Assembly (NCBI RefSeq): GCF_019968905.1
Contig: NZ_CP079946.1
Location: forward strand, 6,545,356 to 6,609,355
Length of the DNA: 64,000 nucleotides
Direction of reading: 5' to 3'
Origin: Corallococcus sp. EGB
GTDB lineage: Bacteria > Myxococcota > Myxococcia > Myxococcales > Myxococcaceae
In this document: piece by piece, positions 6,022-50,552 of the stretch
Layout: each line of letters opens with the position of its first letter
Numbering within the stretch: the stretch's first letter is position 1
Notes under the pieces: generated by a model
What the model saw: only the letters and a program-made list of their open reading frames with translations
Databases searched by the model: none
Told to the model about the DNA's origin: nothing
Position numbers and translations under genes: made by a program

Positions 6022-8021
6022 GGGCCGGGCTCGCGTGGACGCTGGGGCTGCTGTTGCTGTGCGGCTGCACCGTGCCGGGTGACGACGAGGTCCTCCTGCG
6101 GAGGTTCTGTTCGAACACCGGACGGGACTTCCAGGACGCGACGCTCCGGCTGACGGATCCGGCGGCGTGCGACCGGGGCATGGAGGTGGAGGTCCGGAGC
6201 GGGACCTTCCGCCCCGGGTGCGTCCAGGTCTCGCTCCAGGGTGGAGACAAGCGGCGGATTGCCGCCACCCAGTTGTCGGGGCCCACGCAGGTCACTCCGG
6301 AGCAACCGCGCGGCCTGCGCGTCCTGCTCTCAGAGGCGCAGGGGACCACGTTCTGGCTCCTGGCGGAGGCCTTCGCGAGCAATGCCTGCGACGGTGCTCC
6401 CACCACGAAGGTCCTGCGCTTCGTCGACCTCCCCCAGGCCAGGGTGCACCGCGTCCAGCTCGACGTGTCCCAGAGTGACGAGGACGGAGATGGCTACCCG
6501 TCCATCGCCACGGGGGGGACGGACTGCGACGACACGAACGCGGACATCCATCCGGGCGCCACCGAGTTGTGCGACGGCGTGGACAACAACTGCGTGGACG
6601 GCGAGGCGGACGCCCCGGGCATGCGGACGTGGTACGTGGACCGGGACGGGGATGGCTACGGCGAAGCCGTGATGGCGTGCGTGGAGCCCGCGGAGCGGTT
6701 GGCGGACCAGGGCGGCGACTGCGACGATCAGGACGCCTCCGTCCATCCCGGACAGAGCGAGTTCCGGTGCGACGGCCGCGACGACAACTGCGATGGCGCG
6801 AAGGATGAAGACCTGCCCATCCAGGACTGGTACCGGGACGCGGATGGAGACGGCTATGGAGACGTGACCCAGGCCGTCTCGGGTTGCGCACCGCCGCCGG
6901 GCCATGTGGCCATCGCCACGGATTGCGATGACACCCGCGCGGACATCCATCCCGGGCTCCCTGAAACCCGGGACCTCAGGGACAACAACTGCAACGGCGC
7001 CATCGACGAGTGGCTCACCCCAGGCCCGCGCATGGCCGCCACGCAGCGAACCAACCTCGCCCTGACGCCCTCGGGAACGGTCTGGGGATGGGGGAGCAGC
7101 GTCTACCAGCTCCAGGGAGACCGCGCCGACTACACCCATCCCGGCCGGATCCACGAATCCATGCTCAGCCACGTCTCCGCGCTTGCCACCGGCCTGATTC
7201 ATGCGTTGGCCCTGATGCAAGACGGGACGGTCATGGCGTGGGGAGACAACCTTTACGGACAACTGGGGCTGGGAAACAGGGCTCCGCCCGTCTCGTCACC
7301 CCAACAGGTCCCCGGCCTCACCAATGTCGTCGCAGTGGCCGCTGGAGAGTTCCATTCCCTGGCGCTCACGCGCGATGGCACCGTGTGGGCCTGGGGCAGG
7401 AACGATTCGGGGCAGCTGGGTGACGGGACTCGGGACCTGCGAGTGGCTCCGGTCAGGGTCCCGGGTTTGACAGGCGTCATGGCCCTCGCCGCGACGAGTG
7501 ACAGGTCGCTTGCCCTGAGAGCCGATGGCACGGTCTGGCGGCTCGACAGCCCAGCCATCGGGGCCCTCCCCTCGAGGGTTCCCGGGCTGACGGGCGTCGC
7601 GGCAATCGCAGCAACCGCCTCGTCTGACCTGGCCTTGAAGGCGGATGGAACGCTCTGGGCATGGGGAAGGGACCTCACCAAGGCCCCACCCCAACAGCTC
7701 ACGGGCATCGCCACCGTGGTGACCCTCGCGACTGGCGGCGACCATGCGCTCGCGCTCAAGCAGGACGGAACGGTCTGGGCATGGGGTGCCAACTCCAGCG
7801 GCCAGCTTGGAGACGGGACCACCACGGAACGCAAGCAGCCGGTACAGCTCCCCGGACTGACCGACGTCGCCTCCCTGGCCGCGGGCAGTGAGCATTCCCT
7901 GGCCGTGAAGAAGGACGGCAGCGTCTGGGGTTGGGGTTTCAACGCCGATGGGCTGATCGACGATTCGTCGATGGATGTCCTTGCCCCCAAGCAGATCACA
8001 GGTCCGGGGGCTTTGAACTGA
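6018..8021 (+). CDS. Lipoprotein with MopE-type metal-binding repeats and a seven-repeat RCC1 propeller
   Basis: 667 residues. The signal LGLLLLCGC gives a lipoprotein cysteine at residue 17. After an N-terminal region of about 140 residues come three repeats of the type DGDGY...DCDD.(N/D/R)A.(I/V)HPG...(D)NNC.G at about 155-335, the MopE/thrombospondin-3-like putative metal-binding motif. From about 340 to the end there are seven RCC1-like repeats marked by DGTVWAWG variants, enough for one closed seven-bladed beta-propeller. The fourth blade is degenerate (DGTVWRLD) and lacks the usual glycine-rich strand. The RCC1 part shows more A/T-ending codons than its neighbours. Likely a surface or periplasmic binding protein; the ligand is unknown. 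Confidence 0.82.
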
Positions 8022-19411: not shown

Positions 19412-21496
19412 CTACATCGCCTCGGCGGACTGGATTTGACGGTTGGCCGTGTCGCGCTCGATGCAGCCCTTGGTCAGCGTGTACTGGTACGTGCCCAGCT
19501 CGTCACGCCAGTACTCGCCCTCATAGGGCCAGTAGAGCTGATCGTCCGCCACCGCCACGGAGTACTTGTACTTCTTGACGATGGCCGTGCGGCCGCCCGC
19601 CTTGAGCTGCTCCTCCAGGAACTCCTTCTCCTTGGTGGTGGTCTCGAACTTGATGCGCAGGCCGTTGGCGAGCAGCAGCTTGAGCGAGCCCAGCTCCGTC
19701 TCCAGCTTGCCCTTGGCCATGATGCCCGCCTTGGCGATGAGGCTGGTGCGCTGGACCTTCAGGCCCTCCAGCAGCTGCTTGGTCAGCTCCGAGTACTTGA
19801 ACGTGTCGCCCTTCTTGGCGAACAGGTCCATCTCCCCCTCGAGCTCCAGGATGGAGTCGTTGGTCTTCTTCAGGTCCTGGTCCGTGAGGGCCAGCCGGAG
19901 GATGCGCTCCAGGATGATGTCCGTGCCGTTCTTCTCCAGGCCCTCCTTGTTCTTCTTCTGCACGTCCGCGAGCACCGTGTAGTACTCGGAGGCGTCCATG
20001 TTCTTCTTCACGAGCGCGTCCAGCTCGTCGTGCACGGGCAGGTAGGTGCGCTCGAAGTCCTGGAGGATGAGGTTGGACTCCCGGTAGCGGCAGTTCTCGT
20101 AGTAGATGACCGCCTTGAGGATGAGCGCCTCCGGGAAGTACTCCTCGCGGAAGAAGGGCGACGACAGGGTGATGAGGTTGCCCAGCGCCTGCTCGTACTG
20201 ACCGATGCGGTAGTTGGCCCAGGAGGACTCGAAGAGCGCCTCCAGCCACTGCGTGTTCCCGCGCTCCACCTTGTTCAGATAGAAGATGGAGAAGCGGTTC
20301 TGCTGCATGCCGTAGTGCGTGCGGGCCAGCTGCATGAAGGCCAGCTCGCGCAGCGACTTGTCCAGCTTCGCCGCCTCGCCGGTGCGGCCCGCCTGGGGAC
20401 GGGTGAGGCGCACGACTTCCTTCATCGCCTCCAGGGACGCCATGACGTCCGTGTTGCCGCGCTTGGCCGCCGCGTCCTTGTGGTTCGTGCCGTTGCGGAA
20501 GAAGGCCAGGCCCTCCAGGTACTTCGCGCGCGGGTAGAACGGATCCGTGCGCGGGATGGTCAGCGCCAGGCGCTTCACCTCTTCGAAGGACTTGTCCGCG
20601 TTCTCCGTCTGGCCCACCTGGTCCAACGCGCGGCCCCGCACGAAGTGGTAGCGCGCCAGCAGGTAGCGGAACTCGTTCCGGAACTTCTCCGGGAACTCGT
20701 AGTTCGCGTACCGGGCGATCTCATCCAGGATGACCGTCTCGTTCTGCGTCTTGCGGCTGATGAAGAACAGCCACTCCAGGCTCGTCTTGAAGAACTTCGT
20801 GGACGGGCCCGCGGCGAGGATCTTGGAGAACTCGCCCAGCGACGAGTGGTACAGCCCCATGCGGTAGAGCGACTTCGCCAGCACGTAGCGCGCTTCGACG
20901 TGCAGGCCCTGGAGCTTGGGGTCGCCGAGCAGCTCGTGGGAGGCCATGGCGGCCTTCTCGTACTCGTCGTTCTTGAACAGGCTGATGGCCGCGTCCAAGC
21001 GCTGGCGGTCCGCCGTCTTGCCGGACACGTCCACCGCGTCGAACGTCATCGTCGGCGCGGGCGGCTTGTCGTTGTCACCCGTCAGGTCCAGGCCCAGCCC
21101 GGGGGAGCCCTGGGGCGCCGGCTTGGAGGCGGGCGCGGGCTTGGAGACGGGCGCGGGCTTGGAGGCGGCAGAGGCGGGCATGGCCGGCGTGGGCGTCGTC
21201 GTCAGGGCCGCGGGCGGCGTGGCCGGGTTGCCCGCAGGGGCAGGCGCGCTGGTGGCGGCGGAGGGGGACACATCCGAGTCCGCGTCCGCGTCGTCAGCCG
21301 TGGCGGCCGCCTTGCCCTTGCCGTGCCTGGCGGACGGCTTCTTCTTCTTCGCGGAGGCCTTGGAGGAGGCCCCCTTCTTCTTCTTCTTCGACTGGCCCGC
21401 CAGGTCCAGCCCTTCGAAGGACTGGGCCAGCGTGGGGGCCGTGTACGCGAGCGTGAGCCCGAGGACGGCGAGGCGGAGGAACCGGTGGGTGCGCAT
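19412..21496 (-). CDS. gltC: Gliding motility protein GltC (periplasmic TPR protein)
   Basis: 694 residues. In Myxococcus xanthus GltC is a periplasmic TPR component of the Agl-Glt gliding machine. A signal peptide (residues 1-24, ...TAPTLAQ) is followed by SFEGLDLAG and a lysine-rich tract (about 36-62). An Ala/Pro/Lys-rich linker with repeated S-K-P-A-P units leads to a second GLDL motif (about residue 127) and then a long alpha-helical TPR solenoid to the end. Assignment rests mainly on context: it closes an operon with two outer-membrane beta-barrel proteins and a divergent lipoprotein, the arrangement of the gltK-gltB-gltA-gltC locus. It starts 5 bases after gltA and ends at a strong terminator. 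Confidence 0.8.
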   Translation of the reverse strand: MRTHRFLRLAVLGLTLAYTAPTLAQSFEGLDLAGQSKKKKKGASSKASAKKKKPSARHGKGKAAATADDADADSDVSPSAATSAPAPAGNPATPPAALTTTPTPAMPASAASKPAPVSKPAPASKPAPQGSPGLGLDLTGDNDKPPAPTMTFDAVDVSGKTADRQRLDAAISLFKNDEYEKAAMASHELLGDPKLQGLHVEARYVLAKSLYRMGLYHSSLGEFSKILAAGPSTKFFKTSLEWLFFISRKTQNETVILDEIARYANYEFPEKFRNEFRYLLARYHFVRGRALDQVGQTENADKSFEEVKRLALTIPRTDPFYPRAKYLEGLAFFRNGTNHKDAAAKRGNTDVMASLEAMKEVVRLTRPQAGRTGEAAKLDKSLRELAFMQLARTHYGMQQNRFSIFYLNKVERGNTQWLEALFESSWANYRIGQYEQALGNLITLSSPFFREEYFPEALILKAVIYYENCRYRESNLILQDFERTYLPVHDELDALVKKNMDASEYYTVLADVQKKNKEGLEKNGTDIILERILRLALTDQDLKKTNDSILELEGEMDLFAKKGDTFKYSELTKQLLEGLKVQRTSLIAKAGIMAKGKLETELGSLKLLLANGLRIKFETTTKEKEFLEEQLKAGGRTAIVKKYKYSVAVADDQLYWPYEGEYWRDELGTYQYTLTKGCIERDTANRQIQSAEAM

Positions 21497-21501
21497 GAGT
21501 C

Positions 21502-22416
21502 TCAGGAACCGGAGGGGAAGAAGAAGGACAGGCCCAGCTCGAACATGATCTGGTTGCGGAGGTAGTTGGGCGTGGGGTCGCGGCCCTTCTCCACGTAGAT
21601 GAGGTCGCGCAGCTCCGTGCGCAGCGTCATCCAGCGGTTGAAGAAGAAGCGCAGGCCGACGCCCACGTTGCCACCGCCCGTGAGGTACGACTTGCTGCCC
21701 GCGACGGGCGTGCCGTCCGTCAGCGACGTCGCCGGGCCCTTGTACTGGACCACGGACGCGCCCACGACGCCGTACATGTCGAAGTGGACGAACTTCTCCG
21801 CCAGCAGCGACAGCTTGCCGTAGATGGGCGCCCACTGGACGTCCACGCCGCCCATGAGCGTCATCTGGCCGGGCGCGTACCCATCCAATTCGCCCTTGGT
21901 GGGCGCGCGGCAGCCGCGGGTGTCACCGCCCTCGCCCGGCGTGAAGGTGCAGATCTGCGCGGAGCCCGCCACGGAGTTCAGCGCGTAGCCGGCGCGCAGG
22001 CCCACGCCCAGCGTCTCCATGGGGAAGTACGTGAGGGTGCCGCCGAAGAGGTACTTCTTGAAGAACGCGTCGCGGATGGTGACGGACGCGGACGGGCTCA
22101 GCTCGAAGCGGCCCTTCTTGAGGAACATGTGGCCGGACACCGGCCGGATGCGCTCGCGAAGGGGCCCCAGGGCGTCCTTGTCCACCTCGGACACGTCGCC
22201 GGCCTCCTCCTCCTGGGAGGTGGTGGGCGGGTTGGAGTTGGCCGCGGTCTTCGGAGCCGCGGTCTTCGGAGCCGCGGGCGCCGGAGCCGGAGCCGGTGTG
22301 GCCGGTGCGGGAGCCGCGGGCGCGGCGGCGGCCGGAGCGGGGGCCTGGTCGGCGGCGGAGGCGAGCGCGGGCACGCCCGCGCACAGGGTCAGGAGCAGAC
22401 GGACGGCGGGCTTCAT
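21502..22416 (-). CDS. gltA: Gliding motility outer-membrane beta-barrel protein GltA
   Basis: 304 residues with a signal peptide (...PALASAAD), an Ala/Pro-rich periplasmic linker (about 25-65) and a beta-barrel domain from about residue 95 (SGHMFLKKGRFELSPSASVTIRDAFF onward), ending in aromatic-rich strands (MFELGLSFFFPS). It belongs to the myxobacterial outer-membrane beta-barrel family, as does the next gene; both share the ..L(K)K(G/N)R.E(L/I)SP.. entry strand. In M. xanthus GltA and GltB form an outer-membrane complex connecting the gliding motor to the surface. Its start overlaps the gltB stop (ATGA). Which barrel is A and which is B is inferred from gene order. Confidence 0.78.
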   Translation of the reverse strand: MKPAVRLLLTLCAGVPALASAADQAPAPAAAAPAAPAPATPAPAPAPAAPKTAAPKTAANSNPPTTSQEEEAGDVSEVDKDALGPLRERIRPVSGHMFLKKGRFELSPSASVTIRDAFFKKYLFGGTLTYFPMETLGVGLRAGYALNSVAGSAQICTFTPGEGGDTRGCRAPTKGELDGYAPGQMTLMGGVDVQWAPIYGKLSLLAEKFVHFDMYGVVGASVVQYKGPATSLTDGTPVAGSKSYLTGGGNVGVGLRFFFNRWMTLRTELRDLIYVEKGRDPTPNYLRNQIMFELGLSFFFPSGS

Positions 22417-23240
22417 TCGGACTCCCTCCCCGTCGACTTGAGGGGCAGGAAGATGGAGATGCCCGCGTTGAGGGTCATGACGTTCTGGATGGCGCCCTTG
22501 CTGCTGCCCAGGGGCTGGTCCACATAGGAGGTGTTGATCAGGGCCACGTTGACGGCCAGGTAGTCCTTGGTGACGAAGCGCATGCCCAGGCCCAGGTCGA
22601 AGGCCGGGTTGAGCCCGCGGTCGGGCAGCGCGGAGGTCTCCGTCCTCACCACGCCCATGCCGCCCAGCAGGTAGCCGTCGAAGTGGAGGATGGAGTTGAG
22701 GAAGGACACCTTGCCGTAGAGCGGCGCCCACTCCAGGTCGCCCATGGCGGACCAGTTCGGCACGGAGTTGTAGATCTTGCTGTTGAAGGTGCGCTTCGCC
22801 GTGCGGACGTCATCCGACGGGAGCACCTGGATCAACGAGCCGCGCGCGGAGATGGCCAGCGTGTCGGACAGGTACCAGGCCGCCCGGAGCGACCCGCCGA
22901 ACTTCGAATAGAACGGGTCGTTCACGGAGATGCTCACGAACGGTGAGATCTCCAGGCGGTTCTTCTTCAGGTAGACCTTGCGCTGCACGCTCTTCACCCG
23001 GTCGTCCTGGGTGATGTCCGTGAGCGGCATCAGCGCTTCAATCGGGATGTCCTTCGCCGGCGTGGCGGCAGGCGGCGACGCGGGGCGGGCTTCCTCGTCC
23101 GGCGGCGGCGCGGGGTTCTCTGCGGGCGGCTTGGCCTGGGCGTCCTCGGTGAGATCGAGGCCCATGCCTTCCTGGGTCTGGGCGGGGGCCAGCGCGGGCC
23201 ACATCAGGCTCAGCGCAAGCAGCAGCGTGGGGCGGTTCAA
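22413..23240 (-). CDS. gltB: Gliding motility outer-membrane beta-barrel protein GltB
   Basis: 275 residues from a TTG at 23240, which gives a standard signal peptide (NRPTLLLALSLMWPALAPAQ) and has GGAG nine bases upstream. An ATG at 23291 with GAGG eight bases upstream would add a 17-residue, poorly charged extension. The mature protein has GMGLDLTED, an acidic/Pro-rich linker and a barrel from about residue 95 (KVYLKKNRLEISPFVSISVNDPFY) to the terminal MTLNAGISIFLPL. First gene of the gltB-A-C operon. The GLDL motif after the signal is shared with GltC. Confidence 0.77.
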   Translation of the reverse strand: MNRPTLLLALSLMWPALAPAQTQEGMGLDLTEDAQAKPPAENPAPPPDEEARPASPPAATPAKDIPIEALMPLTDITQDDRVKSVQRKVYLKKNRLEISPFVSISVNDPFYSKFGGSLRAAWYLSDTLAISARGSLIQVLPSDDVRTAKRTFNSKIYNSVPNWSAMGDLEWAPLYGKVSFLNSILHFDGYLLGGMGVVRTETSALPDRGLNPAFDLGLGMRFVTKDYLAVNVALINTSYVDQPLGSSKGAIQNVMTLNAGISIFLPLKSTGRESE

Positions 23241-23306
23241 GTCCGGGCGCTCCGTGGGGGGAGGGAACGTACTGCCACCGGAAGGCAGCATCACATCAGC
23301 CTCACC

Positions 23307-23335
23307 ATCCTATCGGCCGTATTCCCAACCATCAA
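23307..23335 (-). promoter_or_regulatory. Predicted sigma-A type promoter of gltBAC
   Basis: On the minus strand: TTGATG (23335-23330), 17-base spacer, TAGGAT (23312-23307). Transcription near 23300 would fit translation from the TTG at 23240 and would remove much of the ribosome-binding site of the 23291 ATG. Pattern match only. Confidence 0.4.
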
Positions 23336-23512
23336 CCAGCAGAATGCGCCCGCACCCTCTGGATTCCTCTCGTATCCCTTCACAATTCCACTGGGCTCAG
23401 GCCCCGCGGGTCAGGGGTTGGCGCGAGGAAGTGGTGTGCTACCGTTTCCGGGTTCCGGGCGCCGTCATCCCCCACGCGCGCCCTGTCTCCATCCTTCCTA
23501 GAGGTCTCAAAG

Positions 23513-24019
23513 ATGTTCGTGCGATCCGCGCTCTTCCTGTCCGCCGTCCTGATGCTGGGTGGCTGCGACGTCAAAACCGAGCTGGGCAAGCCGTGCACCC
23601 TGGTGCGCAAGGCCACGGCCCAGGAGAAGGCGGAGCAGGGCCGCGAGGTGGTGGAGGTGAAGGAGAAGGACATCGCCGCGGATCAGGACTTCATCTCCTT
23701 CGGTTCGCTGGAGTGCGAGGACCTCATCTGCGTGCGCGACGACCAGAGCCCCCGCAGCGAGGATCCGGAGGCGCCGGCCCTGGGCTACTGCAGCAAGGAG
23801 TGCGTGCAGGGCACGACGACGGGCTGCGATATCACCCGCACCGTGGATGACGTGGAGAAGGGGCTCAAGGAGCGCATGACGTGCCGCCCCCTGCTCCTGG
23901 ACCAGGACACGCTGGATGCCATCAAGGTCGCCGACGAGAGCTTCTACCGGCGCACCTTCGGCGAGAACAACTCGCCCTACTTCTGCGCGGGCGCCACGCC
24001 GGCGGCCCAGGGCAACTGA
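23513..24019 (+). CDS. gltK: Gliding motility lipoprotein GltK
   Basis: 168 residues. Lipoprotein signal FLSAVLMLGGC puts the lipidated cysteine at residue 18. The mature part has eight further cysteines in pairs (CTLV, CEDLICV, CSKECVQG..GC, CRP, YFC), suggesting a disulfide-rich periplasmic domain. GAGG lies 8 bases before the ATG. Encoded divergently from gltB across about 270 bases; a lipoprotein next to two OM barrels and a TPR protein matches the M. xanthus gltK-gltB-gltA-gltC cluster, where GltK is an outer-membrane lipoprotein. The name depends on this context rather than on a diagnostic motif. Confidence 0.75.
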   Translation: MFVRSALFLSAVLMLGGCDVKTELGKPCTLVRKATAQEKAEQGREVVEVKEKDIAADQDFISFGSLECEDLICVRDDQSPRSEDPEAPALGYCSKECVQGTTTGCDITRTVDDVEKGLKERMTCRPLLLDQDTLDAIKVADESFYRRTFGENNSPYFCAGATPAAQGN

Positions 24020-24042: not shown

Positions 24043-24121
24043 GCGCGAAAGGGTTAGACCTTTTCGCGCACCCCGTACGTAAAGGCAGGGCCCGCGTTTC
24101 AAACGCCTTTGGAGCCCTGCC
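24043..24121 (+). promoter_or_regulatory. Dyad plus start-abutting hairpin upstream of the VWA gene
   Basis: Two parts. An imperfect dyad, GCGCGAAAGG (24043-24052) against CCTTTTCGCGC (24059-24069), includes the box TAGACCTTTTCGCGC (24055-24069). Then GGCAGGGC (24084-24091) pairs perfectly with GCCCTGCC (24114-24121), which touches the ATG at 24122; an inner stem GCGTT/AACGC sits in the loop. The probable Shine-Dalgarno GGAG (24111-24114) is at the base of the stem. A near-identical box and similar hairpin precede the gene at 27912. Confidence 0.55.
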
Positions 24122-25549
24122 ATGAATCGTACGGTCCTGTTCCTCGCCCTGGCTGGTGGCCTGGCCCTCACCGCGCTGGTGCTGGGCATGCCCCACGGGG
24201 ACATGTTCCCCCCCACACGAACCGGCGTCGTCGTGCCCTCCCCGCTGCCCACCCCGGCGCAGGGGACGCGCGCGTCCTCCGGCAGCCTCCAGGTGACGAG
24301 CCGGCTGTCGCATCCGTACGTGCCGGTGGGGCCGTCCGAGACGTACGTGACGGTGGACCTCACCGGCGCGGAGGTGCCCGGGGCGAAGAGGAGCCCGGTG
24401 AACCTGGCGGTGGTCATCGACCGGTCCGGGTCCATGAGCGGCTACAAGCTCCAGCAGGCGAAGCAGGCCGCGCGGCACCTGGTGTCGCTGCTGCGCGACG
24501 AGGACCGGCTGGCCATCGTGCACTACGGCAGCGACGTGAAGAGCCTGCCGTCCCTGCCGGCCACCGGGGCCAACCGCGAGCGGATGCTCCAGTTCATCGA
24601 CGGCATCTGGGATGACGGTGGCACCAACATCAGCGCGGGCCTGTCCGTGGGCCGCGCGCAGCTGGCCTCCGCCATGGGCGCGGCGACCCCGGTGAACCGC
24701 CTCATCCTGATGAGCGACGGCCAGCCCACCGAGGGCGTGTCCGACGAGGAGGGGCTGAAGAACGTGGTGAAGGAGATCCGCGCGTCCGGCATCACGGTGA
24801 GCTCCATTGGCGTGGGCACGGACTTCAACGAGAACCTGATGCAGGCCTTCGCGGAGTACGGCGCCGGCGCGTACGGCTTCCTCGAGGACGCGAGCAAGCT
24901 GTCCACCCTCTTCCAGCGCGACCTGCAGCAGGCCACCACCGCGGTGGCGCGCAACGTGGAGCTGTCCTTCGACCTGCCCCCGGGCACGACGCTGGATGAG
25001 GTACTGGGCTACCGCTACCACCAGGCCGGCAACACGGTGCGCGTGGCGCTGCCGGACTTCTCCGCGGGCCAGGTGGAGCGCGTGGTGGCGCGCCTCCACG
25101 TGACGGGGACCGCTCCGGGCCAGTCCGTGCAGGTGGCGGGGCTGATGGTCGCGTACACGGACCTGCTGGTGCAGAAGGACGTGGAGGACCAGTCCCTGCT
25201 GGCCGCGGTGGCCACGGACGTGCAGGAGGAGGTCGTCCGGCGCCAGGACAAGGAGGCCACGGTGTACGCGGCCCGGGCCCGCAGCGCGCAGAACCTCCAG
25301 AAGGCCGCGGAGGCCATGAGCCAGGGCAACCGTGCCGAGGCGAAGGGCTACCTCTCCCAGAACCAGGCCCTCTTCATGGAGGCGAGCGCGGTGGCGGGCG
25401 CGGCGGCGGTGGCGGCGGATCAGGAGGAGCAGTCCCGCACGATGCAGGAATACGACGCCGCGCAGACCGACGAGGCCCTGAAGGCCGCGACGAAGGCCAC
25501 CAAGGTGAAGGCGCTCAAGAGCTTCGGGCGCATGGGCTCGACGTACTGA
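24122..25549 (+). CDS. Secreted von Willebrand factor A domain protein
   Basis: 475 residues. N-terminal signal or anchor helix (residues 4-23), a Pro-rich linker, then a VWA domain from about 97: NLAVVIDRSGSMSG carries the DxSxS metal-ion site, followed by G-G-T-N-I-S (site threonine) and LMSDGQPTEG (site aspartate), so the MIDAS is complete. The C-terminal half has a beta-rich segment (LPDFSAGQVERVVARLHV..) and an Ala/Gln/Lys-rich helical tail (about 340-460). Similar proteins are annotated as Ca-activated chloride-channel-like, but nothing here shows channel activity. Likely a periplasmic protein-protein or matrix-binding module. Confidence 0.82.
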   Translation: MNRTVLFLALAGGLALTALVLGMPHGDMFPPTRTGVVVPSPLPTPAQGTRASSGSLQVTSRLSHPYVPVGPSETYVTVDLTGAEVPGAKRSPVNLAVVIDRSGSMSGYKLQQAKQAARHLVSLLRDEDRLAIVHYGSDVKSLPSLPATGANRERMLQFIDGIWDDGGTNISAGLSVGRAQLASAMGAATPVNRLILMSDGQPTEGVSDEEGLKNVVKEIRASGITVSSIGVGTDFNENLMQAFAEYGAGAYGFLEDASKLSTLFQRDLQQATTAVARNVELSFDLPPGTTLDEVLGYRYHQAGNTVRVALPDFSAGQVERVVARLHVTGTAPGQSVQVAGLMVAYTDLLVQKDVEDQSLLAAVATDVQEEVVRRQDKEATVYAARARSAQNLQKAAEAMSQGNRAEAKGYLSQNQALFMEASAVAGAAAVAADQEEQSRTMQEYDAAQTDEALKAATKATKVKALKSFGRMGSTY

Positions 25550-25719: not shown

Positions 25720-26223
25720 ATGGCGGCGAGCGCGAGCACCCCGTGGGTCGGGGTCATCATGGGCGGCAAGAGCGACCTGGAGCACCTGCAACCGGCGATC
25801 GACATCCTCGCCGAGCTGCGCATCCCGCACGAGGTGCGCGTCGTGTCCGCGCACCGCACGCCGGACTGGATGATGGAGTACGCGTCCAGCGCGGAGTCGC
25901 GCGGCCTGTCCGTCATCATCGCCGCGGCGGGCGGCGCGGCGCACCTGCCCGGCATGGTGTCCAGCAAGACGCTGCTGCCCGTGCTGGGCGTGCCCATGCC
26001 CACCACCGTGCTGTCCGGCTTCGACGCGCTGCTCTCCATCGTGCAGATGCCCAAGGGCGTGCCGGTGGGGACGCAGGCCATTGGCAAGCCCGGGGCCGCC
26101 AACGCGGCGCTGCACGCGGCGGCCATCCTGGCGCTGAAGTACCCGGAGCTGCGCGAGCGGCTGGCCGCATGGCGCAAGGCCCGCACGGATGAGGTGCTGG
26201 CGCAGCGCGAGGTGGCGGGATGA
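25720..26223 (+). CDS. purE: N5-carboxyaminoimidazole ribonucleotide mutase
   Basis: Moves the carboxyl group of N5-CAIR to C4 in purine synthesis. 167 residues: VGVIMGGKSDLEHLQPAIDIL at the N-terminus, VVSAHRTPDWMMEYA with the catalytic histidine, IIAAAGGAAHLPGMVSSKT and VLGVPMPTTVLSGFDALLSIVQMP, all class I PurE signatures. The ATG at 25720 is preceded by GGAGG at 11 bases and begins just before the conserved core; an in-frame start further upstream would read through the predicted promoter. Overlaps purK by ATGA. Confidence 0.96.
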   Translation: MAASASTPWVGVIMGGKSDLEHLQPAIDILAELRIPHEVRVVSAHRTPDWMMEYASSAESRGLSVIIAAAGGAAHLPGMVSSKTLLPVLGVPMPTTVLSGFDALLSIVQMPKGVPVGTQAIGKPGAANAALHAAAILALKYPELRERLAAWRKARTDEVLAQREVAG

Positions 26224-27362
26224 GCGGCCCCATGGTGCTTCCGGGCGGGACGCTGGGCATCCTGGGCGGCGGCCAGCTGGGGCGCATGATGGCGCTCGCG
26301 GCGCGCACGCTGGGCTACCAGGTGCAGGCGTTGGATCCGGACTCGGCGTGCCCGTCCCGCTCCGTGGTGGACCGCTGCCTCACCGCGTCCTTCTCCGACA
26401 CGGCGGCGGCGGAGGACCTGGCGCGACAGTGCGACGTGGTGACGCTGGAGATTGAAAAGGTGTCGCTGTCCACGCTCAACGCGGTGGCCCGGCACGCGCC
26501 CATGCGGCCCGGCGCCTCCGTGCTGGAGGTGGTGCAGCACCGCGGCCGGCAGAAGGCCTGGCTCGCCAGGGGCGGCTTCCCGCTGGGCCCGTGGCGCGAG
26601 GCGAACTCGGAGGAGGCGCTGTCCCAGGCCATCACCGCGCTGGGCGGCAGGTGCTTCATCAAGTCCAGCGAGGGTGGCTACGACGGGCGCGGCCAGTACG
26701 AGGTGACGTCGGCCTCCGAGGCGGCCGTCGCGTGGAAGGAGCTGGGCGGGCGCTCCGTGGTGGTGGAGGCCGCGCTGGACCTGAAGGCGGAGCTGTCCGT
26801 GCTGGTGGCGCGGGGGCCGGATGGCCAGCTCGCGGTGTATCCGCCCGCGTTCAACCACCATGAGGAGCGCATCCTCGCGTGGTCGCTGCTCCCCGGCCCG
26901 CTGCCTCCGGCCGTGCTGACGCAGGCGTCGCAGGTGGCGCGCGACATCACCGACGGGCTGAAGGTGGAGGGCCTCCTGGTGGTGGAGATGTTCCTGTTGG
27001 GAGACGGGACGCTGCTCGTCAACGAGGTGGCGCCCCGGCCGCACAACAGCTTCCACTCGACGGAGGTGGCGTGCCTGACGAGCCAGTTCGAACAGGCCGT
27101 GCGCGCGGTGTGCAACCTGCCCCTGGGCTCCGTGGAGGTGGTGCGCCCCGCGGCCATCGTGAACCTGCTGGGCGACCTGTGGCTCCAGGAGGGCGGGCCC
27201 CGCTTCGCGCAGGCGCTGGCGCTGCCCGGCGTCCGGCTGCACCTGTACGGCAAGCGCGACGCGCGCAAGGGCCGCAAGATGGGCCACCTGTCCGCGGTGG
27301 GCAGCACGCCCGAGGACGCGCTCCAGCGGGTGAAGGCCGCCGCCACGGCCCTGGGGATGTAA
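26220..27362 (+). CDS. purK: N5-carboxyaminoimidazole ribonucleotide synthase
   Basis: ATP-grasp enzyme carboxylating AIR to N5-CAIR. 380 residues: LGILGGGQLGRMMALAARTLGY at the start, the ATP-grasp segment CFIKSSEGGYDGRGQYEV, and metal-binding ..LLVNEVAPRPHNSFHSTEVACLTSQFEQ in the C-terminal half, then KMGHLSAVGSTPEDAL near the end. Its start overlaps the purE stop by four bases, so PurE and PurK are made together, the standard bacterial arrangement. Confidence 0.96.
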   Translation: MSGPMVLPGGTLGILGGGQLGRMMALAARTLGYQVQALDPDSACPSRSVVDRCLTASFSDTAAAEDLARQCDVVTLEIEKVSLSTLNAVARHAPMRPGASVLEVVQHRGRQKAWLARGGFPLGPWREANSEEALSQAITALGGRCFIKSSEGGYDGRGQYEVTSASEAAVAWKELGGRSVVVEAALDLKAELSVLVARGPDGQLAVYPPAFNHHEERILAWSLLPGPLPPAVLTQASQVARDITDGLKVEGLLVVEMFLLGDGTLLVNEVAPRPHNSFHSTEVACLTSQFEQAVRAVCNLPLGSVEVVRPAAIVNLLGDLWLQEGGPRFAQALALPGVRLHLYGKRDARKGRKMGHLSAVGSTPEDALQRVKAAATALGM

Positions 27363-27366
27363 CGCC

Positions 27367-27843
27367 ATGAAGACGAACGCCGCCCGGCTCCTGGACTCGC
27401 TCGGCATCGCGTACGCGCTGCGCGACTACGACGTGGATCCGGACGACCTGTCCGCGGAGACGGTGGCCGCGAAGGTGGGCATGCCGGCGGAGCAGGTCTT
27501 CAAGACGCTGGTGGCCAAGGGCGACCGCACCGGCGTGCTGATGGCGGTGGTGCCGGGCAACGCGGAGCTGGACTTGAAGGCCCTGGCGCGGCTGTCCGGC
27601 GACCGCAAGGTGGACACCGTTCCCCTCAAGGAGCTGCAGCCGCTCACCGGCTACATCCGGGGCGGCGTCACCGCGCTCGGGGGCAAGAAGGACTATCCCG
27701 TCTTCGTGGATGAGACGCTGGAGCTGTTCGACGCGGTGGCGGTGTCCGCGGGGGTGCGCGGGACGCAGCTCGTCCTCGCCCCGGCGGACTACCTCCGCGT
27801 GACGAAGGGCAGGACGGGACCCATTTCGCGGCCGAAGGCGTAG
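27367..27843 (+). CDS. ybaK: YbaK-type Cys-tRNA(Pro)/aminoacyl-tRNA deacylase
   Basis: Hydrolyses misacylated tRNA, typically Cys-tRNA(Pro), in trans. 158 residues, the normal length. Features: AARLLDSLGIAYALRDYDVD, VGMPAEQVFKTLVAKGD with the conserved F-K-T-L-V-A-K block, AVVPGNAELDLKALAR, and LTGYIRGGVTALGGKKDYPVFVDE. Starts 4 bases after the purK stop, so it is probably in the pur operon, although there is no metabolic link. The exact substrate within the YbaK/ProX/PrdX superfamily cannot be fixed from sequence. Confidence 0.92.
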   Translation: MKTNAARLLDSLGIAYALRDYDVDPDDLSAETVAAKVGMPAEQVFKTLVAKGDRTGVLMAVVPGNAELDLKALARLSGDRKVDTVPLKELQPLTGYIRGGVTALGGKKDYPVFVDETLELFDAVAVSAGVRGTQLVLAPADYLRVTKGRTGPISRPKA

Positions 27844-27911
27844 ACCCTTTTCGCGCGCCGCGCGTTCAAAGGGACATTCCCGGCCCTTGGGGCCGTTCCC
27901 GGGGTGTCCCG
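27841..27911 (+). promoter_or_regulatory. Shared box plus start-abutting hairpin upstream of the membrane/coiled-coil gene
   Basis: Box TAGACCCTTTTCGCGC (27841-27856) differs from that at 24055 by one inserted C and lies 55 bases before its ATG (52 bases in the other case). It is followed by GGGACA (27871-27876) pairing with TGTCCC (27905-27910), with inner stem CGGCCC/GGGCCG (27881-27886 and 27890-27895). The Shine-Dalgarno-like GGGG (27901-27904) lies next to the right arm. The box begins on the stop codon of ybaK. Confidence 0.55.
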
Positions 27912-29144
27912 ATGAATGCCGCCGTGTTGCAATTCCATCACCGCGAAGCCTTCGAGCACACCGTCACGCGCGCGCTGGCGGCAGGCGCCGGGGCAGGGCT
28001 CGTGCAGTGGCTCGGCCTGCGCGCGGGCATGCCGGTGCCGCTGACGTGGCTGGTGCCCGCCGCGGTGGTGCTGGCCTGCGCGCGCGGCGACCGGTGGGAC
28101 CGGGGCCTCTTGAGCGGCCTGGGGTTGGTGCTCGTCGCGCTGCCTTACGGGTTGGGCCTGTCGCCCGCGTGGACGGTGGCCACCAGCGGCGCGGCCGCCG
28201 GTGCGCTGCTGGTGCGCGCGCGCCTCAACGACCTGGGCGAGGAGGGACAGGTCGCGGAGGCCCGCCCCACCCTCGTGCACTACGGCCTGGGCGCCGTGCT
28301 GGGCGCGGGGCTCACGCTCGCGGGCGGCGTGGTGGCGAACATCCTGTCCGCGCGGCTGGCGTCCGTGGCCACGCCCACGTTGTTGGCGGCGGCGGTGGTG
28401 GGCGGCATCGTGGGGCTCTTCGTGGGGCTGGGCGCCATCGCCGCGCACCTGGGCCTGACGGCCGACCCGGTGGAGGCGCGCGCGGAGGAGTTGCTCCCGC
28501 AGCTCACCGGTGACTTCCACACGCTGTCCGAGCGCGCGCTGTCGCTCTATCGCCAGTGCGGGCAGTCGCTGGCGAAGCTGCCCCGGGAGCCCGCGCGCGA
28601 GGAGCTGGCCCGGACGCTGGCGCGGATCACCCAGGGCGCGGTGGAGCTCGCGTCCGAGTGGGCCGGCGTGGAAGCACAGCTGGAGGAGCGCGCCGCGGCG
28701 GAGTTGCAGGCGGAGCGCGACAGCCTGGAGCGCAGTGCTCGCGCGAGCACCGACGTGGTGGCGCGCCGGCAGCTGGAGGCCGCGGCGGCGTCGTTGGCCG
28801 AGGAGGTGGAACGGCTGGGGGACATGCGGCAGCGGCGCGAGCGCATCCTCGCGAGGCTGCGTGCGGAGGTGGCGCTGCTGGAGCGTGCGCGCGTGGCGCT
28901 GCTGTCGCTGCGCAGCGGCCAGGCGCAGCTGAAGGCGGCCGAGCTGGCCTCGCTGGCCCGCCGGTTCCGTGCCCTCTCGACCGCCCAGGGAGAGGAAGGC
29001 CAGGCGATGGACGCGGTCGCGGCTCAGGTCACCCTGACCCAGGTGGCGCCGGTGGAAATCGCCCCGGTGGCCCCGGTGGGTGGCGCTCCGACGGCCTCCG
29101 GGGGCGCCAAACTGCCGGAAATCCAGCGGATTCAGGGGGAATAG
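27912..29144 (+). CDS. Polytopic membrane protein with C-terminal coiled coil
   Basis: 410 residues; not recognised. The first ~185 residues contain about six hydrophobic segments (for example LTWLVPAAVVLACA, LLSGLGLVLVALPYGLGL, YGLGAVLGAGLTLAGGVVANIL, LLAAAVVGGIVGLFVGLGAIAAHLGL). From about 190 to 360 the sequence is Ala/Leu/Glu/Arg-rich with heptad-like spacing, predicting a long coiled coil facing the cytoplasm. The last 40 residues are Pro/Val/Ala-rich. Possibly a scaffold or signalling adaptor; no enzymatic motif is visible. Its leader shares the box and hairpin of the VWA gene at 24122, so the two may be co-regulated. Confidence 0.72.
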   Translation: MNAAVLQFHHREAFEHTVTRALAAGAGAGLVQWLGLRAGMPVPLTWLVPAAVVLACARGDRWDRGLLSGLGLVLVALPYGLGLSPAWTVATSGAAAGALLVRARLNDLGEEGQVAEARPTLVHYGLGAVLGAGLTLAGGVVANILSARLASVATPTLLAAAVVGGIVGLFVGLGAIAAHLGLTADPVEARAEELLPQLTGDFHTLSERALSLYRQCGQSLAKLPREPAREELARTLARITQGAVELASEWAGVEAQLEERAAAELQAERDSLERSARASTDVVARRQLEAAAASLAEEVERLGDMRQRRERILARLRAEVALLERARVALLSLRSGQAQLKAAELASLARRFRALSTAQGEEGQAMDAVAAQVTLTQVAPVEIAPVAPVGGAPTASGGAKLPEIQRIQGE

Positions 29145-49538: not shown

Positions 49539-50552
49539 ATGGCCGCGAAGTCCGCCCGCAAGTCCGCCGCCCCCGCGAAGTCGAAATCGGCCACGCCGCG
49601 CAAGCCGCGCCGCAAGAAGGCCGAACCGAAGTCGCGGGGCCTGAGCGCGGCGGAGGTGGCGAGCGAGGCCGTCGCCTTCCCCGACGCCCTCCTCCAGGCG
49701 GTGCGCGAGGACGGCGGCGAGGTGCTCTCCGTCTACCGAGACCCGCTGGGCGGGCACCCCATCGTCTTCGCCGCGCTCCCCATCGACAAGGTGGAGCCCA
49801 CGCCCTACCAGCGCGACCTGTCCGAGCCGCACGTCAAGCGGCTCGTCACCGCCATGGAGCGCCTGGATCGCTTTCTGGACCCCGTCATCGCCGTGCGCAT
49901 GGAGGGCCGCTACTGGACGCCCAACGGCAACCACCGGCTCAACGCCAGCCGCATGCTGGGCGCGAAGTCCATCGTCGCGCTCATCCTCCCGGACGAGGAC
50001 GTGGCCTATCAGATCCTCGCCCTCAACACGGAGAAGGCCCACAACCTGAAGGAGCGCTCGCTGGAGGTCATCCGCATGGCGCGGGGCCTGGTGGGCGCGA
50101 ACCGCCCGGGCAAGGAGTCCGCCTTCGCCCACCTCTTCGACGAGCCCTCCTTCCTCACCCTCGGCGCCGCCTACGAGAAGCGCCCCCGCTTCTCCGCGGG
50201 CGCCTACCACCCCTTCGTCAAGGTGGTGGACGGCTTCCAGGGCGTGCCGCTGCCCCAGGCCCTGGCCGTGCGCGACGCCCAGGCGGACGCGCTGCTGGAG
50301 CTGGATGACGCGGTGATCGCCATCGTCAACGCCCTCAAGGAGCGCGGCCTCCAGAGCCCCTACCTCAAGAACTTCGTCGTCGCCCGGCTCAACTTCCTGC
50401 GCTTCCGCAAGGACGGCCCTCCGCCCACCTTCGACGCCACCCTCAGCCGCATGCTCGCCAGCGCCCGCCGCTTCAACGTGGACAAGGTGCGCCGCGAGGA
50501 CATTGGCCGCATGGGCGGCGGGCCCCTGGAACCGGACGAAGAGCAGGCCTGA
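49539..50552 (+). CDS. Orphan ParB-like protein with histone-H1-like N-terminal tail
   Basis: 337 residues. Residues 1-33 are Lys/Ala/Pro/Arg-rich (AAKSARKSAAPAKSKSATP.. ending KPRRKKAEPKS), resembling eukaryotic H1 tails. Then a ParB N-terminal CTPase-like domain: LPIDKVEPTPYQRDLSEPHVKRLVTAMERLDRFLDPVIAVRMEGRYWTPNGNHRLNASRMLGAKSI; the usual GERR is GNHR. No helix-turn-helix ParB motif or clear dimerisation domain is apparent. There is no parA beside it, so it is unlikely to be the chromosome-segregation ParB. A nucleoid-related or nucleotide-binding function is possible. Translation may be controlled by the upstream hairpin. Confidence 0.8.
   Translation: MAAKSARKSAAPAKSKSATPRKPRRKKAEPKSRGLSAAEVASEAVAFPDALLQAVREDGGEVLSVYRDPLGGHPIVFAALPIDKVEPTPYQRDLSEPHVKRLVTAMERLDRFLDPVIAVRMEGRYWTPNGNHRLNASRMLGAKSIVALILPDEDVAYQILALNTEKAHNLKERSLEVIRMARGLVGANRPGKESAFAHLFDEPSFLTLGAAYEKRPRFSAGAYHPFVKVVDGFQGVPLPQALAVRDAQADALLELDDAVIAIVNALKERGLQSPYLKNFVVARLNFLRFRKDGPPPTFDATLSRMLASARRFNVDKVRREDIGRMGGGPLEPDEEQA

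Follow-up and report, generated by a model that had tools for sequence, protein, structure and literature searches.

A probable ECF-type promoter shared by a VWA-domain gene, its partner and two ECF sigma factor genes in Corallococcus and related myxobacteria

The VWA–CC locus and its neighbors

The window (the whole 64,000-nucleotide stretch analyzed here, from contig NZ_CP079946.1 of Corallococcus sp. EGB) carries a VWA-domain gene downstream of the gliding motility gene cglC, followed by purE, purK, a ybaK-like gene and then a second gene, hereafter CC, that turns out to be the partner of the first (Table 1). The CC protein matched no family in Pfam or NCBIfam at the cut-offs used. For purE, the ATG at 25720 is the likely start, the family query having been made from 25708. 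The gliding motility locus occupies 19412–24019 and comprises cglC on the plus strand together with divergent ORFs in an order fitting gltB, gltA and gltC, an assignment that comes from gene order with Myxococcus xanthus and not from a family search. In the part of PMC4488436 drawn on here, the M. xanthus gliding locus cglC-gltBAC is MXAN_2538-2541, and the window resembles it in joining an NCBIfam-recognized cglC to divergent ORFs. The VWA gene is probably the counterpart of MXAN_2537; a literature search on MXAN_2532-2537 returned no match for it.

The genes at 24122 and 27912 had been described at the outset as unrelated, and their lack of homology had been taken to exclude duplication. Neither view stands. 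In other genera CC lies directly 3′ of the VWA gene, at 17 loci (L103–L117, L119 and L120), while in the window's own genus, and in the majority of the sister-genus genomes read, purE-purK-ybaK lies between the two. The same genome also contains a paralogous pair, again adjacent (G000:C1:9166266-9168713, locus L063), with identities of about 40% and 36%; the 160 nt around its start hold no AGAYC-CGT promoter. Six g8 genomes that were searched gave only a paralogue-level match to CC, which in G022 is the paralogue pair. The two genes are adjacent, operon-like partners in many genera, and these envelope genes probably once formed a single operon. Because they are adjacent partners elsewhere, a local duplication of the promoter at the time the pair was separated becomes possible.

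Table 1. Features of the VWA–CC locus and of the two ECF sigma factor genes. Positions are those of the window unless marked as genome positions.
Feature	Position	Strand	Remarks
cglC/gltK, adventurous gliding motility lipoprotein	23513–24019	+	NCBIfam NF033754, E 8.6e-61
Inverted repeat enclosing the first −35 element	24043–24069	+	dG −19.8, z −5.9; soon after the cglC stop codon
−35 element TAGACC, promoter 1 (VWA gene)	24055–24060	+	core AGACC 24056–24060; conserved AGAYC-N15..18-CGT
−10 element CGTAAA, promoter 1	24078–24083	+	CGT 24078–24080, 17 bases 3′ of AGACC
VWA leader hairpin	24084–24121	+	dG −24.8 kcal/mol and z −4.4 (41-nt fragment); abuts the ATG
VWA-domain protein, 475 aa, promoter 1 target	24122–25549	+	PF00092, E 5.2e-24
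purE, purK, ybaK-like tRNA-editing-domain gene	25720–27843	+	Pfam AIRC, ATP-grasp, tRNA_edit
−35 element TAGACC, promoter 2 (partner gene CC)	27841–27846	+	overlaps the ybaK stop codon TAG
−10 element CGTTCA, promoter 2	27863–27868	+	CGT 27863–27865, 16 bases 3′ of AGACC
27912 leader hairpin	27871–27910	+	dG −27.7 and z −2.6 (47-nt fragment); one base left between stem and ATG
Partner gene (CC), 410 aa, promoter 2 target	27912–29144	+	hydrophobic N-terminal part, apparent coiled coil (sequence reading)
ECF1, 171 aa	6616258–6616770 (genome)		about 43 kb from the box; Sigma70_r2 3.5e-17, Sigma70_r4_2 7.3e-16
ECF2	5767429–5768070 (genome)	−	NF009166 3.3e-80; Sigma70_r2 9.1e-19, Sigma70_r4_2 1e-16

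Two boxes upstream of the partner genes

A shared box precedes both genes: TAGACCTTTTCGCGC at 24055–24069, 52 bases 5′ of the ATG at 24122, and TAGACCCTTTTCGCGC at 27841–27856, 55 bases 5′ of the ATG at 27912, coordinates and distances that agree with the preliminary description when checked on the sequence. Box 1 supplies the 3′ arm of a 12-bp hairpin (24043–24069), and the TAG that opens box 2 (27841–27843) terminates the ybaK-like ORF at 27367–27843. Across the whole genome (9,431,171 bases, or 9.43 Mb), the pattern TAGACCN{0,1}TTTTCGCGC matched exactly twice, at these two boxes, which lie 3.8 kb apart, and its reversed control gave no match. The preliminary description had proposed comparing the frequency of the box near starts with that elsewhere, and for this comparison the genome offers two matches only, both 5′ of starts.

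The shared 15-mer was nevertheless rejected as the functional unit, as across genera only AGAYC and CGT hold. The 15-mer alone occurs in many unrelated genomes (at least 119 stretches), and two of the 80 listed 15-mer loci that were read carry genes of the regulon proposed below. Among the matches listed are a Corallococcus interemptor record with the box 5′ of the VWA gene and a Corallococcus terminator record with the literal TAGACCCTTTTCGCGC 5′ of ECF1, a sigma factor gene discussed below. Judged by these comparisons, the 15/16-mer identity of the two boxes is a genus-level likeness around the true −35 element.

Conservation of a probable two-part promoter element

The form that is conserved is AGA[C/T]C-N16/17-CGT. 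For counting, 140 nt of upstream sequence were read with the pattern AGAYC-N15..18-CGT wherever the gene start could be placed, and matches were kept if they began no more than four residues from the query start and had 140 nt upstream. This filter left out the VWA genes of G007 and G009, both of which show the motif; VWA loci L013, L017 and L018 were omitted where the contig ends before the gene start, and the CC gene of G039 falls outside the 58 counted and carries the motif too. Of 40 genomes, 39 have the motif 5′ of the VWA gene (G022 has AGAAC instead), and of 58 genomes, 42 have it 5′ of CC. The latter figure separates cleanly by gene order: where CC does not directly follow the VWA gene the motif is always present (42/42), and where it does the motif is always absent (0/16), a pattern by which CC directly after VWA needs no promoter of its own. 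Upstream of five control genes the motif was not found at all (0/137: cglC 0/38, purE 0/21, purK 0/22, ybaK 0/34 and an EAL gene 0/22), and at these loci the background of AGAYC-N15..18-CGT amounts to about 0.02 per region of 140 nt. The VWA promoter has a spacer of 17 in 23 of 39 cases and of 16 in the other 16, the CC promoter has 16 in 40 of 42 and 17 in two, and every located promoter has one or the other, 15–18 being allowed in the search. AGAAC as the −35 element was seen only at the VWA gene of G022 and at ECF1 of G061. Retention upstream of orthologues, proposed earlier as a check on the box, thus holds for the two-part motif and fails for the full box.

With only two exact copies in the genome, a short distance apart, and with genes that are adjacent elsewhere, promoter 2 could be a mere local duplication of promoter 1, the 15/16-mer identity reflecting recent shared ancestry with no wider regulon behind it. 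Against this, the spacers of the VWA and CC promoters are unlike in sister genera (for example, TTTTCCCGCGC versus TTTTTATTCGC), only the −35 and −10 elements being held, and the distant ECF1 and ECF2 genes bear this motif too, in almost every genome examined. An ECF regulon leaves room for promoter 2 to have arisen by duplication, but duplication does not account for everything, and the stronger claim that nothing else lies behind the likeness is quite improbable.

Genome-wide occurrence

In the window's genome TAGAYCN{16,17}CGTT matched 14 times and its control 15 times, and in G010 the plain motif matched 9 times against 10 in the control. A broad regulon was rejected, since the plain motif shows no genome-wide enrichment, and the case therefore rests on position and conservation. 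Position is informative. Among the 14 matches in the window's own genome, a GC3-rich coding start lies no more than 120 nt downstream only at CC, ECF1 and ECF2; seven of the others fall within GC3-rich ORFs, and four are neither within such an ORF nor 5′ of a start. Two of these matches required care, as the one at ECF1 is overlapped by an over-long opposite ORF whose permease domain stops well short of it, and the one at ECF2 by an over-long upstream extension of the ECF2 ORF. In G010 two more matches have a start downstream, but they lie inside ORFs. AGAYCNTTN{13,14}CGT gave 16 matches in the window's genome against 9 in the control, four of the 16 at VWA, CC, ECF1 and ECF2. A narrower form of the motif gave 8 matches against 0. 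In G010 and G006, both complete genomes, TAGAYCNTTN{13,14}CGT matched five times each, at the same five sites, against one match each for the reversed control. Four of the five sites are again those of VWA, CC, ECF1 and ECF2, and no gene start in the sense direction follows the fifth within the sequence that was read.

A housekeeping promoter, or a chance match with no specific regulon attached, would sit comfortably with the lack of enrichment of the plain motif. It does not explain why the controls are empty where the regions upstream of VWA, and of CC genes not directly after VWA, are filled almost without exception, nor why four of every five matches to the stricter pattern in two further whole genomes are these very promoters, and we regard it as highly improbable.

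ECF sigma factor genes that carry the motif

CGT is the −10 hallmark of ECF promoters, and an ECF link was therefore looked for among motif-bearing genes elsewhere. Two such genes, ECF1 and ECF2, encode proteins with sigma-70 regions 2 and 4, the promoter-binding domains, as recognized by Pfam. The motif stands 5′ of ECF1 in 58 of 61 genomes, being absent in G057 and G059 and replaced by the AGAAC form in G061, and 5′ of ECF2 in all 60 genomes; the ECF1 gene of G017 (L188) was not placeable. The stop codon of ECF2 overlaps, as ATGA, the start of a gene for a zf-HC2 protein (3.8e-6) with a hydrophobic stretch, a candidate anti-sigma factor. Three ORFs lying less than 1.5 kb from ECF1 showed no anti-sigma domain in Pfam; one encodes a permease, another an S46 peptidase, and the third has no family.

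Two side observations concern the margins of this gene set. The ECF1 genes without an upstream AGAYC (L206 and L207, in G057 and G059) belong to genomes that also have only a paralogue-level match to CC, and the absence of both the ECF1 motif and a true CC there hints at coupled loss. Separately, locus L355, from the metagenome genome Myxococcaceae bacterium PMG_225, bears a full promoter match (TAGACC, 16 bases, CGTTCAAGG) about 85 bases 5′ of a different VWA-domain gene (6502–7689, minus strand; PF00092 1.3e-6), possibly a further member of the regulon.

The box is thus very probably the −35 end of an ECF-type promoter that serves a small, self-regulated regulon of ECF2, ECF1, VWA and CC. 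The promoter form most likely reads (T)AGA[C/T]C-N16/17-CGT, judging from its recurrence at these four genes. In the literature, judged by titles and the beginnings of abstracts, searches on the promoter sequence with Myxococcus, on Myxococcus ECF regulons and on ECF classification returned no paper describing the element.

Leader hairpins and the inverted repeat

Folding bears out the earlier remark that a hairpin ends at, or one base before, each of the two ATGs. Among 45 gene starts in the window, as called by a simple GC3 rule, none has a 40-nt leader more stable than these two. With about 27 coding bases added, the z scores of the two hairpins weaken to −2.0 (VWA) and −1.7 (27912). In the predicted fold of the VWA leader, three of the four bases of a Shine-Dalgarno-like GGAG are paired and the stem spans the spacer to the ATG. 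The VWA and CC leader hairpins have no sequence in common. Other start-abutting leader hairpins occur in the window at 49539 (dG −22.4) and 40740 (dG −21.6), unrelated in sequence.

The preliminary description had left open whether the regulon element was a promoter or operator, or a translational switch in which the box and the start-abutting hairpin make up one RNA element. The exceptional stability of both leaders speaks for such a switch, as does the retention of the VWA fold, with z ≤ −2 in 11 of 11 leaders of g1, both of g25 and 7 of 10 in g37, next to 1 of 17 in the remaining set. Yet the expected transcript start falls 3′ of the box, and the CC leader is structured by the same threshold only in g1 (16/16), with 0/2 in g25, 0/4 in g27/28 and 0/20 in g37, or none of 26 outside g1. 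ECF1 and ECF2 carry the motif, yet their g1 leaders are without a hairpin (0/16 and 0/15). Covariation is weak: one of the 13 pairs of the VWA stem shows a double change, in an alignment where two misaligned g25 leaders were scored as broken pairs, and the CC leader is nearly invariant in g1 and therefore gives no covariation support. The hairpins and the box do not travel together, so a shared translational switch is extremely unlikely. Of the alternatives in the preliminary description, the promoter is the part that stands, on conservation, negative controls and the ECF genes that carry the motif, and the shared switch falls with a CC hairpin that is confined to the window's genus among the groups read. 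The leader hairpins may instead be a separate, lineage-specific layer with an effect on translation or RNA stability. Stem-loops are also frequent in the ECF1 leaders of other groups (L155–L166 and L203–L212; 12 of 16 in g37 and 5 of 7 in the remaining set).

The inverted repeat that encloses the first −35 element is distinct from these leaders. Judged by single-sequence folding, as its stem slides in register in alignments, it reaches z ≤ −2 at the VWA gene in 10 of 11 cases in g1, 2 of 2 in g25, 9 of 10 in g37 and 1 of 17 in the others, and seldom at other promoters (CC 2/42, ECF1 6/44, ECF2 5/30), 10 of the 11 ECF cases being in g37. Arms able to form a hairpin at VWA in g1, g25 and g37 would suit a repressor operator, but between genera the arms vary in sequence and still pair, as suits an RNA hairpin more than a protein site, and outside g37 the repeat is seldom seen at the other promoters. 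Its location soon after the cglC stop codon makes a terminator or 3′ hairpin the simpler reading. We consider an operator very unlikely; the repeat is possibly a cglC terminator or 3′ hairpin that overlaps the promoter.

The probable cognate sigma factor and the −35 middle base

With the promoter reading in hand, the choice of sigma factor falls between ECF1 and ECF2. ECF1, or both proteins, could be cognate with ECF2 as a target: ECF1 bears the motif in nearly all genomes and lies about 43 kb from the box, and in G016 and G007, where a strict search (E ≤ 1e-80) gave no ECF2, ECF1 is present and the promoter is retained at VWA or CC. The reverse situation, however, is found in G018, G066 and G039, which have the promoter at VWA or CC, have ECF2 and gave no ECF1 match at E ≤ 1e-25 (G018 being only 86% complete). 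The middle base of the −35 element also follows ECF2 more closely. VWA and ECF2 share it in 33 of 34 genomes (19 C/C, 14 T/T and one A/C), as against 31 of 36 for VWA and ECF1, and the anti-sigma candidate, too, has a counterpart in none of the three ORFs near ECF1 by Pfam. ECF2 is most likely the cognate sigma factor, on this sequence evidence, and ECF1 as the cognate factor, alone or beside ECF2, is unlikely, though not negligibly so.

The base at this position is mirrored in the protein. Five positions part the ECF2 proteins of C genomes and T genomes fully or nearly so. One is the residue before ENTVKSRM in sigma-4, at a site that we take to be the start of the helix reading the −35 element: S occupies it in 11 of the 12 C genomes, N in 11 of the 13 T genomes that could be read, and P in the rest. 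Of the 60 ECF2 genes, 26 were compared, from 14 of the 17 T genomes and 12 of the 43 C genomes; the row of G065 was too short for the sigma-4 residue. When the T/C label is placed on the ECF2 tree a single change suffices, so the concerted switch of base and residue may be one event; one old switch could explain both patterns.

Comparison with known systems

ECF promoters have a −35 to −10 spacing of about 16–17 bp. Their −10 hallmark is CGT and their early −35 hallmark AAC, positive autoregulation is common, and the defining features of the ECF group were later narrowed to sigma-2/sigma-4, according to the sections of PMC8103513 used here. The present element resembles ECF (group IV) promoters in its −10 CGT and its 16–17 bp spacing and differs in its −35 element, which is AGAYC (AGACC or AGATC) instead of an AAC core. 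The AAC hallmark was looked for and is absent but for the AGAAC of G022 and G061, and we therefore report the element as a variant that would work like an ECF promoter. Autoregulated ECF/anti-sigma operons offer a second likeness, recognized here from sequence alone, in the motif 5′ of the ECF gene itself, the overlapping zinc-finger anti-sigma candidate and the small regulon; unlike in the usual operons of this kind, two ECF genes share one promoter type.

The general stress response of alphaproteobacteria offers another comparison. The same sections of PMC8103513 give AAC and CGTT for EcfG promoters, describe control of EcfG as a partner-switch, and present SigT/SigU as a case in which the second ECF gene is a target of the first. 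Congruent with the EcfG pattern, the −10 element is CGTT at most ECF1 promoters, at ECF2 and at roughly half the CC promoters, and a second ECF gene as the proposed target of the first recalls SigT/SigU. The −35 element, the zf-HC2 anti-sigma candidate and the very small regulon set the myxobacterial system apart from EcfG.

A proposed ECF2 regulon and its implications

From these comparisons we infer the direction from ECF2 to ECF1, the start points and the existence of a release signal. A candidate zinc-finger membrane anti-sigma factor would release ECF2, and the released ECF2 would transcribe its own operon, ECF1, the VWA gene at 24122 and CC at 27912. An ancestral VWA–CC operon would have been split, leaving the separated CC with its own copy of the same promoter. 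More tentatively, in a wider picture that is somewhat less likely than not, the regulon may extend through the whole myxobacterial family, with two ECF genes in cascade that act through one non-canonical AGAYC/CGT promoter class for an envelope system of VWA plus membrane partner beside the gliding locus. CC would have gained its promoter copy at separation, the sigma-4 S/N residue would have changed together with the −35 C/T base at unlinked promoters, and the stem-loop leaders would form a second, translational layer in some lineages.

These predatory soil bacteria possess dozens of ECF genes, and the targets of most are unknown. If true, the proposal would tie a specific ECF sigma factor, its anti-sigma factor and a promoter sequence to defined targets in such organisms. 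It would also provide a clear case of an operon that was split and retained its co-regulation through a second promoter copy, and the pairing of a sigma-4 residue with a base of the −35 element, which departs from the AAC rule, would be testable.
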